Source: an uncultured Acholeplasmatales bacterium (lineage in GTDB: Bacteria > Bacillota_I > Bacilli_A > Acholeplasmatales > Anaeroplasmataceae). Taken from it: DNA of 46,355 nucleotides. The DNA is taken from the NCBI GenBank assembly GCA_944324795.1, contig CALUXR010000015.1, positions 1-46,355 of the forward strand, given 5' to 3'. The notes beneath the pieces are model-generated. The model was not told where the DNA came from and did not search any database. It saw only the letters and a list, made by a program, of their open reading frames with translations. This document shows, piece after piece, positions 15,724 through 21,347 of this stretch (its first letter is position 1; each line of letters begins with the position of its first letter). Position numbers and translations under genes: made by a program.

Positions 15724-16890
15724 ATGGTTAATTTATTAAGAAAAATATTTATAAAAAACTATAAGGATATAGAAAATCCAATTGTTAGAACTAAGCATGG
15801 TACTTTAGCAAGTTTAGTTGGAATTTGTTCAAACTTTATTTTATTTTTAGCTAAGATAATTATTGGCTCAATTGCTAAATCAGTTTCTATTGTCGGTGAT
15901 AGTTTTAATAATTTATCTGATATGTGTTCTTCGACTATTAACTTATTAGGATTTAAGATTGCTTCAAAACCGGCTGATAAAGAACATCCATATGGTCATG
16001 CAAGATTTGAATATGTTGCTGGATTGATTGTTAGTGTGATTATAATTGTTTTTGGTATTCAAATTTTAATGGATTCTATCAATGCTATTATCGCAAATGA
16101 TCAAACAAAAATTGATATTTTAACTTTAATAATATTAGCTTTAGCCATCATTATTAAATTATGGCAAGGCTATTTTTATAGGAAAATTGGTAAGACAATC
16201 AATTCAATATCTTTAATTGCTTCAAGTCAAGATTCATTGAATGATGTTTTATCAACCAGTGTTATTTTTGTTGCTAGTTTAGTTATATATTTTGTTCCTA
16301 ATATGCCATTTTCTTTAGATGGAGTTTTAGGTATTTTAGTTGGTATTTTTGTTTGTATCTCAGGCATTAAAATGATAAAAGAAACATCAGATCCATTAAT
16401 TGGTGTTAATCCAAGCCACGAATTTATTCAAAATATATTAAGTGATATTTTAGCTTATCCTGTAGTTCTTGATGTTCATGATGTAAGATGTCATATGTAT
16501 GGTCCTGCAAAGAGTTTTATGACTGTCCATGTTGAAGTTAATGCTAAAGAAAATTTTATGGAAGTTCATGACCAAATCGATAATATTGAACGCGATATTA
16601 ATAAAAAATATGGAGTAGAATTGACGATCCATATGGATCCTGTTGAAAGTGATAATGAATATGTTAACGGACTTAAAAAGGAAGTAAATGAATTGCTTCA
16701 ACCATATGGTTTTACTATTCATGATTTTAGAGTTGTAACAGGTCCAACTCATACTAATATGGTTTTTGATATTGTTTTACCAAGAGATAATAAATTAAAA
16801 GAAGATGAAATTTTGAAAATGTTAAATGAACATTTCAAAGGTCGCAATTTTTATTTTGTAGTTAATTTTGATGGTGATTATCTTGATTAA
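15724..16890 (+). CDS. Cation diffusion facilitator (CDF) metal exporter, possibly Mn2+
   Basis: A 388-residue CDF transporter with about six membrane helices and a cytoplasmic C-terminal domain containing HDVRCHMYGP and VHVEVNA. The TM2 motif GDSFNNLSD provides N-x3-D and the TM5 motif SQDSLND provides D-x3-D. In known CDFs an Asp in place of the TM5 His goes with manganese rather than zinc, so Mn2+ export is a reasonable inference. HPYGHARFEY is the conserved segment after TM2. No strong ribosome site is visible; the start lies seven bases after the protease stop. Confidence 0.88.
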   Translation: MVNLLRKIFIKNYKDIENPIVRTKHGTLASLVGICSNFILFLAKIIIGSIAKSVSIVGDSFNNLSDMCSSTINLLGFKIASKPADKEHPYGHARFEYVAGLIVSVIIIVFGIQILMDSINAIIANDQTKIDILTLIILALAIIIKLWQGYFYRKIGKTINSISLIASSQDSLNDVLSTSVIFVASLVIYFVPNMPFSLDGVLGILVGIFVCISGIKMIKETSDPLIGVNPSHEFIQNILSDILAYPVVLDVHDVRCHMYGPAKSFMTVHVEVNAKENFMEVHDQIDNIERDINKKYGVELTIHMDPVESDNEYVNGLKKEVNELLQPYGFTIHDFRVVTGPTHTNMVFDIVLPRDNKLKEDEILKMLNEHFKGRNFYFVVNFDGDYLD

Positions 16891-17584
16891 GTATCATTAT
16901 TATTTAAAGAAATTAGCTAGTGGTAATTTATTAGACGATAATGAATTAAATTATGTTAAAGCTTATCAAGCTTATGCTTATAATGTTTATTTAACTATTC
17001 TTTTAGCGGTAGGGATTGTTATTTTTTTAACAGGTTTTATCTTCACTTTATTAATGAATTTAATTGTAGGTTTAATATTACTTATATTAGGATTGTTAAT
17101 AATAATTTATTATTCACCAATATTCTTTTTTCTAAATAGAAAATATTATAAAAAAGCTCTAGCAAAATATTTAGAAAATAGATTAAAAGAATATCAAAAT
17201 AAAAAAATTTTATATGTATATTTTAAATGTCATTCTAATTTTAATATAAAAAAAGATAGTGTTTATTTTATATATGATGAATATTATTTCACTATTAAAG
17301 AAGATTTATTATGTGAAGAAAAAATAGGTAATAATATTTTTAAATATCCTGATAATAATTTTGAAAAAATAGGAATTAAATTTAAATTAAATGAAATCTC
17401 CTCTTTTTTATCATTAAAAGAAGGAAAATATCATAATGCTAATTATTTAGAATTAGTAGAAAAGAAAATAGTTAAAGAGGAATTTTGCCAAATTAATCTT
17501 AAAGATTTTAGAACTATTAATATAGGTATGGAAGTTGGTTTAGTATTAAATGAATTATTACCATATTTAAATGAAGCAAATTAA
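16871..17584 (+). CDS. Two-helix membrane protein of unknown function
   Basis: I do not recognise this family. The protein is about 237 residues with two adjacent membrane helices (about 35-60 and 65-85) and a long Lys/Tyr/Asn-rich cytoplasmic-type tail. It overlaps the end of the CDF gene. The start is uncertain: ATG 16871 has no ribosome site, while TTG 16883 sits just behind GGTGAT (16873-16878) and may be the real start. No terminator is evident before the rpsF promoter. Confidence 0.6.
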   Translation: MVIILIKYHYYLKKLASGNLLDDNELNYVKAYQAYAYNVYLTILLAVGIVIFLTGFIFTLLMNLIVGLILLILGLLIIIYYSPIFFFLNRKYYKKALAKYLENRLKEYQNKKILYVYFKCHSNFNIKKDSVYFIYDEYYFTIKEDLLCEEKIGNNIFKYPDNNFEKIGIKFKLNEISSFLSLKEGKYHNANYLELVEKKIVKEEFCQINLKDFRTINIGMEVGLVLNELLPYLNEAN

Positions 17585-18824: not shown

Positions 18825-18850
18825 AATCACAAGGAAACTTGTGATTTTTT
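18825..18850 (+). terminator. Intrinsic terminator of the rpsF operon
   Basis: AATCACAAG and CTTGTGATT form a 9-bp stem with a GAAA tetraloop, followed by a run of T. Confidence 0.9.
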
Positions 18851-18872
18851 AATGGGATTTAAGTCCTTTCAT

Positions 18873-18900
18873 TGTAAAATTTAGAATTAATTGGTATAAT
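18873..18900 (+). promoter_or_regulatory. Promoter of the gdpP-rplI to GH105 operon
   Basis: TTGTAA (18873-18878) and TATAAT (18895-18900) are 16 bases apart, with an extended -10 (TGGTATAAT). GAGGTGAT then leads to a TTG start at 18921. Confidence 0.75.
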
Positions 18901-18920
18901 TAGTCAAATGAGGTGATAAT

Positions 18921-21347
18921 TTGATTTATCTATTATTGTGTATTATAGCTCTTGGTGGTTCAGGAGTTTTATGGTATTTTTATACAGCTGAACAGACAAT
19001 TTTTTTAGAAAATGTGTATTTAATTTCAGCATGTGTTCTATTATTTGTTTCTATTAGTGCTCTATACGCTTATTTTTATGTTCAAAAAAAGAAAGAAGCT
19101 AAGAAACTAAGAGAACAATTAGAAGTATGGGCTGATACAACATATCATATTAATGCCGCTGGTGATATGGCTTTTCAAACTTTACCGATTGGAATTATGA
19201 TTTATGATAAGAATTATACAATTAAATGGTTTAATGCGTTTGCTCAAAAGTGTCTTAAAAAAAGTTTGAAAGATTTACAAGTTTCTTCTATTAGTACTGA
19301 ATTAGCTGATTTTCTTTTAAGTGATGAAACATCCTTTAATTTAAAGGATGGAACTAACACTTATGAATTTAATGTTAAAAGAGAAAATAAAATTTTATAT
19401 TTCTTTGATATTACACGTGAAACAGAATTAAGAACACGTTATTTGAATCGTAATATTGCTATTGGAATAATCGTTGTTGATAATTTAGAAGAAAGTTTAA
19501 AAAATTATGGTTTACAAGATAAAACAACTATCAACGCAAAAATATTAGGTCAAATTTCTGAATGGGCCGCTAAATACAATTGCTTTTTACAAGGTATTGA
19601 TGATGATAGGTTCTTAGTGATTAGTGAACGCGAAGAATTAGAAAAAATGGTTGCTTCTAAATTTGATATATTAGATAAGGTTAGAGACTTATCTAAACAA
19701 AGTAGACTTAAAGCTACAATAAGTATAGGCATTGCATCATTTGATTTAAAAGCAAATGAAGTTGGAGCATTGGCTAAACAAGCTGTTGATTTAGCTGAAA
19801 AAAGAGGCGGGGATCAAGTGGTTGTCAATGTCCAAGGTTCTAAAATTCAATATATTGGTGGCCAAGTTAATGCCTTAGAAAAGAACACTTTAGTTGCTGT
19901 AAGAATGCAAACAAATGCATTAAAAGAATTGACAGAAACATATGAAAAAGTTTTAATTATGACTCATAATAAGGCCGATTGTGATGCGATTGGTTCAAGT
20001 CTTGGGGCTTTAAGATTAATTGAAAGTTTTGGTGCTACAGTAAGATTAGCTATAGATTATGATAGATTAGATGTTACAGCTAAGAAAGCTTATGATATTT
20101 TAATTGAAGAAGAACCAGAAATTATCGATTTCTTTTTAGATGAAACTAGAGCTTTAAGTTATTTAAACTCTAATACATTATTACTTGTTTGTGATACTCA
20201 ATCACCAAGCTTAGTTATGTTTAAAGAAATCATCGATAAAGCGCAACACTGTGCTATTATTGACCACCATAGAGTTGGTGATGTTGATTTTAATAATGTA
20301 GAAATGAGTTATGTAGAAACATATTCATCATCGACAGTTGAACTGATAACGGAAATGTTTATGTTTACACAAAATTCTAAATTGAGTCCGATTGAAGCTA
20401 CCTTGATGCTTTCTGGGGTAGTTGTAGATACTAATTATTTTAGCTATAGAACTGGTTTTAGAACTTTTGAAGTAGCTTCTACTTTAAAGGAAAACGGAGC
20501 TGATATGGTCAAAGTAAAAAGAGTTTTAAGAGATTCTTATGATTCAGAAAAAGAAATATCAGAAGCTGTTGTTAAAAGTGAGATTTTGCTTGGTCATTTT
20601 GCGATTAGTGTTATAGATAAAACATTTGATGATCGTACTATTTTAGCTAAAATATCTGATCGTTTACTAACGATTGAAGGTGTAGATGCTTCATTTACTA
20701 TTAGTAAGACAAATGATAATGAAGTAGCTATTTCAGCTCGTAGTTTAGATACAATAAATGTGCAAGTTATTATGGAAGAAATGGGTGGTGGTGGTCATTT
20801 ACAAGCAGCTGCTGTCCAAATTAAAGATGCAAATATTGAAGATGTTAAAGAACAACTTTTAAACATTTTAAAACGTGATTATGATGTAGAAGGTGAAGAT
20901 AAAATGAAAGTTATTTTACTTAAAGATGTAAAAGGTAAAGGCAAAAAAGATGATGTTATTGAAGTTAATAATGGTTATGGTAATTATTTAATCAATAATG
21001 GTGAAGCAATTATTTGTAATGATGCTAATTTAAAACAATTAGAAGAAAATAAAAAACAAGAAGCGATTGATAAAGAAAATAGACGTAATTTATTATTAAA
21101 ATTAAAAGAAGATATTGATTCTAAATCAGTAACAATTTATATTAAACAAGGTGCTGATGGCAAATTATTTGGGCATGTTACATCTAAACAAGTCGTTGAA
21201 GAATTTGATGCTCAAAATGGTATTAGATTAGATAAAAGAAAATTAGAATTACCTGCTGATATCAATGCGATTGGTATTTATCAAGCTACAGTTGATTTAG
21301 ATAAAGATATTCAAGCTACCTTCCAAATTAATGTTGTAGGTTGTTAA
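18921..21347 (+). CDS. gdpP-rplI: GdpP c-di-AMP phosphodiesterase fused in frame to ribosomal protein L9
   Basis: One uninterrupted 808-residue frame starts at TTG 18921. Residues 1-661 are GdpP (YybT): two N-terminal helices, a PAS-like region, a degenerate GGDEF domain (GIDDDRF near 233), then DHH/DHHA1 catalysis with THNKADCDAIGS (about 348), IDHH (about 446) and GGGGH (about 621). Residues 662-808 are a complete L9 beginning MKVILLKDVKGKGKKDD and keeping both L9 domains. GdpP hydrolyses c-di-AMP at the membrane; L9 belongs to the 50S subunit. In Bacillus the two are separate adjacent genes before the replicative helicase gene, so the order is preserved and only the stop is missing. An internal ribosome site at the junction may yield free L9. 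Confidence 0.93.
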   Translation: MIYLLLCIIALGGSGVLWYFYTAEQTIFLENVYLISACVLLFVSISALYAYFYVQKKKEAKKLREQLEVWADTTYHINAAGDMAFQTLPIGIMIYDKNYTIKWFNAFAQKCLKKSLKDLQVSSISTELADFLLSDETSFNLKDGTNTYEFNVKRENKILYFFDITRETELRTRYLNRNIAIGIIVVDNLEESLKNYGLQDKTTINAKILGQISEWAAKYNCFLQGIDDDRFLVISEREELEKMVASKFDILDKVRDLSKQSRLKATISIGIASFDLKANEVGALAKQAVDLAEKRGGDQVVVNVQGSKIQYIGGQVNALEKNTLVAVRMQTNALKELTETYEKVLIMTHNKADCDAIGSSLGALRLIESFGATVRLAIDYDRLDVTAKKAYDILIEEEPEIIDFFLDETRALSYLNSNTLLLVCDTQSPSLVMFKEIIDKAQHCAIIDHHRVGDVDFNNVEMSYVETYSSSTVELITEMFMFTQNSKLSPIEATLMLSGVVVDTNYFSYRTGFRTFEVASTLKENGADMVKVKRVLRDSYDSEKEISEAVVKSEILLGHFAISVIDKTFDDRTILAKISDRLLTIEGVDASFTISKTNDNEVAISARSLDTINVQVIMEEMGGGGHLQAAAVQIKDANIEDVKEQLLNILKRDYDVEGEDKMKVILLKDVKGKGKKDDVIEVNNGYGNYLINNGEAIICNDANLKQLEENKKQEAIDKENRRNLLLKLKEDIDSKSVTIYIKQGADGKLFGHVTSKQVVEEFDAQNGIRLDKRKLELPADINAIGIYQATVDLDKDIQATFQINVVGC
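20904..21347 (+). CDS. rplI: Ribosomal protein L9, possible internal translation product
   Basis: This is the L9 portion of the fusion. ATG 20904-20906 is in frame with the upstream GdpP sequence and is preceded by GAAGGTGA (20889-20896), about eight bases away, which is good ribosome-site spacing. Translation from here would give a normal-length 147-residue L9 that need not stay attached to the membrane enzyme. Whether it is used cannot be seen from sequence. Confidence 0.5.
   Translation: MKVILLKDVKGKGKKDDVIEVNNGYGNYLINNGEAIICNDANLKQLEENKKQEAIDKENRRNLLLKLKEDIDSKSVTIYIKQGADGKLFGHVTSKQVVEEFDAQNGIRLDKRKLELPADINAIGIYQATVDLDKDIQATFQINVVGC

Follow-up and report, generated by a model that had tools for sequence, protein, structure and literature searches.

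The gdpP-rplI Locus

We analyzed a stretch of 46,355 nucleotides from an uncultured Acholeplasmatales bacterium (hereafter the window). Its open reading frame list contains one frame on the forward strand, here called gdpP-rplI, that runs without interruption from a TTG start codon at 18921 to a TAA stop codon ending at 21347 and encodes 808 amino acids. The TTG is preceded by a Shine-Dalgarno sequence, GAGGTGA (18910–18916). The frame contains, all above Pfam cut-offs, the domains PAS_GdpP (19149–19412, residues 77–164), GGDEF_GdpP (19470–19844, residues 184–308), DHH (19947–20420, residues 343–500) and DHHA1 (20625–20870, residues 569–650), followed by Ribosomal_L9_N (20904–21041, residues 662–707) and Ribosomal_L9_C (21099–21338, residues 727–806). 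An in-frame fusion of GdpP to ribosomal protein L9, as the original prediction had proposed, is thus borne out by the domain content. The fusion itself is already known, as the whole chain (residues 34–806) matches the named family NF011110 with 727.9 bits against a curated cut-off of 707.

The GdpP part has the complete set of domains, including a degenerate GGDEF. Its DHH/DHHA1 motif residues (H349, D353, D355, D425, D448-H449-H450, D503, and GGGGH at 622–626), which had been reported as kept, are indeed invariant in an alignment of six fusions. The PDB chain closest to the window protein, 9n0l (E 9e-83), belongs to a cyclic-di-AMP phosphodiesterase. By its domains and intact catalytic motifs, the GdpP part is a predicted c-di-AMP phosphodiesterase. 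The L9 part (20904–21347, 147 aa) was likewise rightly described as complete: besides both of its domains it matches TIGR00158 (112.5 bits, cut-off 58.6) and conserves Gly24 and Gly90. It is a complete bL9 for which incorporation into the 50S subunit is predicted. No second L9 was found elsewhere in the assembly of the window, which is 99.5% complete. An AlphaFold2 model built with six sequences has a mean pLDDT of 66, and below 50 at the junction and in the L9 N domain, which is too weak for a structural claim; with the same low confidence, it shows two long helices near the N-terminus (residues 2–22 and 27–71), where the sequence is hydrophobic, as candidate membrane helices.

Upstream lie genes that we take from their translations to be rpsF, ssb, and rpsR, and downstream presumably dnaB, prfA, and prmC, a setting that is the usual one in Bacilli. 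A terminator-like stem-loop (18825–18846) and a promoter-like site (18872–18900; a consensus match alone, 10 of 12 positions, with a TG before the second hexamer), both on the forward strand, set rpsR apart from gdpP-rplI, so the latter may form a transcript of its own together with dnaB. Further upstream, before rpsF, we also noted a 238-aa frame with hydrophobic stretches (16868–17584).

Distribution and Origin of the Fusion

Among 100 close genomes, 97 have the locus, and in all 97 it is one frame without a stop; two of the remaining genomes gave no match (G035, G084) and one only a weak DHH paralogue (G047). A further member of the order, G435, is also fused, which brings the total to 98 of 98 order members with the locus. 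Outside the order, the fusion extends to five sister families (f9, f16, f19, f23, f24), where it was seen in 90 genomes, so that the relatives sharing the fusion, for which the original prediction had called for a search, prove to be numerous. Named species with the fusion include Acholeplasma oculi and A. equifetale. Unfused genes were found in 46 genomes from 17 other families of the class. Most of the genomes compared are metagenome assemblies.

In a GdpP tree of 103 rows, with the rooting assumed, the fused forms are explained by one change (support 86), which makes a single origin the simplest reading, and the fusion probably arose once. In unfused relatives, the L9 Shine-Dalgarno sequence is located where gdpP ends or shortly after it. 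In the unfused genome G101, for example, GdpP, the motif GAGGG, a TAA stop, AAA, and the ATG of L9 follow each other in the same frame (GAGGGATAAAAAATG). Replacing the stop in such an order gives the fused layout and leaves the L9 start site unchanged. This agrees with the earlier suggestion that nothing but a stop codon disappeared, and the fusion was probably formed by loss of the stop between adjacent gdpP and rplI genes.

Two observations stand apart from this distribution. Genome G178, of genus g84 (97% complete, 10 contigs), yielded neither GdpP nor L9, unlike G348, G354, and G360 of the same genus, which may reflect a real loss or a gap in the assembly. In G226 (L206), an open frame of 397 aa that covers L9 was considered as a further fusion and rejected: two separate genes encode GdpP and L9 there, each in its own frame, and the long frame arises by chance read-through of GC-rich DNA. 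A frame of this length over L9 is also listed for G279.

A Probable Internal Start Site for L9

Within the fused frame of the window, the linker peptide V-E-G-E-D-K is encoded in part by a candidate internal Shine-Dalgarno sequence, AAGGTGA (20890–20896), which lies 7 nt before an ATG (20904–20906). This ATG is codon 1 of L9 and codon 662 of the fusion. We compared this junction across 148 fused genomes from 61 genera, of which 143 (60 genera) have a single L9. The first codon of L9 is a start codon in all 143 of these single-L9 fusions (ATG in 135, GTG in seven, and TTG in one). In the eight cases other than ATG, the residue in the fused chain is Val (seven) or Leu (one), always encoded by GTG or TTG, even though GTG accounts for just 3–16% of all Val codons of the genes concerned and, in the gene with TTG, 18 of 92 Leu codons are TTG.

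The same 143 genes have a mean Shine-Dalgarno energy before L9 codon 1 of −9.55 kcal/mol, the weakest being −4.6. By comparison, 2391 other in-frame ATGs of these genes average −1.75, with about 11% reaching −4.6, and the starts of stand-alone L9 genes have a mean of −9.03. Synonymous recodings of the same peptides average −7.48, weaker than the real sites (per-genus Wilcoxon p = 5e-8, n = 60). This shuffle test is conservative, as linkers rich in Gly and Glu favor a Shine-Dalgarno sequence anyway; in such linkers the gain is modest, and in 39 of the 143 genomes the site is no stronger than the mean of its own shuffles. Weak junctions occur in G196, G103, and G208. Single-L9 fusions thus combine a conserved start codon with a Shine-Dalgarno sequence beyond chance, as expected of an in-frame internal start.

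Inherited preference for certain linker peptides could in principle have kept the site. Across the fusions, the Shine-Dalgarno sequence is read as 42 distinct short peptides, and it occurs in each of the three codon phases (readings include EGG, EGE, QEE, KEE, KGD, and LGD), and therefore it is the DNA, not the peptide, that is kept. All 10 complete fused-clade genomes that we checked carry a matching 16S 3′ tail; the 16S tail of the window's own genome was not found in its assembly. RNA structure at the internal start showed nothing unusual (z −0.26 and −1.22), and codon bias was no different in the L9 part from that in the GdpP part, so it gives no sign of separate high expression. On the strength of the conserved start site and of the two natural experiments described below, free L9 is very probably made from the internal start.

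Two Lineages With a Second L9

Five genomes carry a second, stand-alone L9 gene directly downstream of the fusion: two in genus g5 of family f1 (L076 and L079 in G011 and G044) and three in genus g84 of family f9 (L180–L182 in G354, G360, and G348). On the L9 tree the two sets fall in different families, with the g84 tails and stand-alone copies grouping together at 94/77, and we therefore count two independent tandem duplications. They represent a natural experiment on one sequence under two demands.

The fused copy has lost its Shine-Dalgarno sequence in all five genomes (0 to −1.2), and the stand-alone copy keeps one (−4.7 to −10.3). The start codon of the fused copy is also gone in three of the five, all from genus g84 (AAG, AAG, and ACT). 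Loss in 5/5 against retention in 143/143 gives a Fisher p of 2e-9 when genomes are counted, although these represent only two independent events. Such loss after duplication is what one would predict for a ribosomal L9 that is produced from the internal start.

The L9-like tail of GdpP itself remains full length and in frame in all five genomes. Between G011 and G044 its dN is 0.086 and its dS 0.75 (dN/dS about 0.11), and between G354 and G360 these values are 0.17 and 0.53 (about 0.32); the tail is thus under purifying selection in both duplicated lineages. Gly24 and Gly90 are lost from the tail in all five. Among the other L9s compared, Gly24 is never missing, and Gly90 is retained by 99% of the single-L9 fusions and by 94% of the stand-alone genes. 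Gly24 is expected to lie in a loop of the N domain that contacts rRNA. Because these glycines are lost while the tail stays under selection, its role in GdpP is probably independent of ordinary ribosome binding.

One Gene, Probably Two Products

We propose that gdpP-rplI is one gene with two products, a GdpP-L9 chain with a function of its own and free L9, and give this reading a probability of about 0.8. Ribosomes starting at TTG 18921 would read through into L9 and produce a putatively membrane-bound GdpP of 808 aa that ends in an L9 tail, and those starting at the internal Shine-Dalgarno sequence and ATG (20890–20906) would produce the free 147-aa L9 for the 50S subunit. The open frame argues for the long chain, which we think is likely to be both made and useful. 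In this proposal the stop between gdpP and rplI would have been lost once, the L9 ribosome-binding site, already within the 3′ end of gdpP, would have stayed, and the tail would later have gained a role in GdpP. After a tandem copy took over the ribosome supply, the tail could then have shed its start site and some residues otherwise invariant in L9. Our guess is that the tail is a folded C-terminal module that may aid the assembly, stability, or regulation of GdpP. Somewhat more tentatively, we favor a clade-wide double selection on this one gene, for free L9 and for the GdpP tail; duplication would have released the conflict twice, leaving rplI to the ribosome and the tail to become a non-ribosomal L9-like domain.

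Other readings of the locus were weighed against this one. Free L9 could come from the internal start with the GdpP-L9 chain as a tolerated by-product without function, given that L9 works unfused in other Bacilli and that the internal start alone would account for the ribosome supply. Against this, a regained stop was found in none of the 188 fused-clade genomes checked, even though a single mutation would turn 55% of the final 15 codons of the linker into one, and after duplication two lineages preserve the tail intact under the selection described above; we therefore regard a functionless chain as unlikely. An error of assembly or sequencing that hides a stop is negligible as an explanation, since every relative with the locus has the fusion, in independent assemblies that include cultured Acholeplasma.

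The remaining readings concern how L9 would reach the ribosome. That there is one L9 per genome in a continuous frame would fit a fused chain that is the sole L9, sits in the ribosome, and ties ribosomes to the membrane. We consider this very improbable: it leaves unexplained why the start codon and Shine-Dalgarno sequence are kept in every single-L9 fusion and lost only beside a second L9, and, from established knowledge, a scarce membrane enzyme would need to reach the numbers of ribosomes. The original prediction that L9-containing ribosomes could be membrane-tethered is not supported as a general statement, as single-L9 genomes keep the L9 ribosome-binding site and start codon; with the start site lost only beside a second L9, most L9 is probably made free. 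Tethering is unlikely to be the main outcome, since free L9 should be far more abundant than the fused chain, and a minor tethered fraction may still occur. Cleavage of the linker by a protease would agree with the near-constant L9 boundary, 37–41 residues from the DHHA1 GGGH motif (46 in three genomes), but the linker peptide is variable and conservation is seen instead in the Shine-Dalgarno DNA and in the start codon, GTG and TTG included, which makes this route hardly credible. We thus retain the two-product reading. Under it, the NF011110 entry is better understood as a two-product gene than as a curious bifunctional protein, and annotation pipelines probably overlook the rplI product in the whole order and its sister families. 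The duplicated lineages also suggest an unrecognized C-terminal module in a c-di-AMP enzyme, which could connect signaling with ribosomes or be merely a borrowed fold.

Comparison With Known Systems

Among openly licensed papers, we found none that joins GdpP, L9, and their fusion. A survey of translation in Mollicutes labels some genes as "fusion," in its supplement only. The manner in which L9 would be supplied from the fusion has no earlier record that we could find, and is thus the new part of this account. The closest known entry is NF011110 (PRK14538), "putative bifunctional signaling protein/50S ribosomal protein L9," which has the same domain order over the whole chain. Its name implies one bifunctional protein, and it is silent on the internal L9 start and on the duplicated lineages.

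The Bacillus-type arrangement of GdpP (YybT) and a separate rplI has the same neighboring genes as the fusion, and in unfused relatives the 3′ end of gdpP carries the L9 Shine-Dalgarno sequence, as it does in the fusion. It differs in the stop between the two genes and in a GdpP without an L9 tail. A similar layout is known from IspH-RPS1, in which an enzyme forms an in-frame fusion with a ribosomal protein for which the genome has no second gene (PMC4746011); both the enzyme and the ribosomal protein differ from those of GdpP-L9, and an internal start is unmentioned there. For the production of two proteins from one frame, a parallel is archaeal Cas11b, a smaller protein that is reported to be made separately from an internal start in the same frame (PMC11899642). 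In gdpP-rplI the shorter product would be a ribosomal protein and the longer a signaling enzyme, with separate production predicted from sequence.
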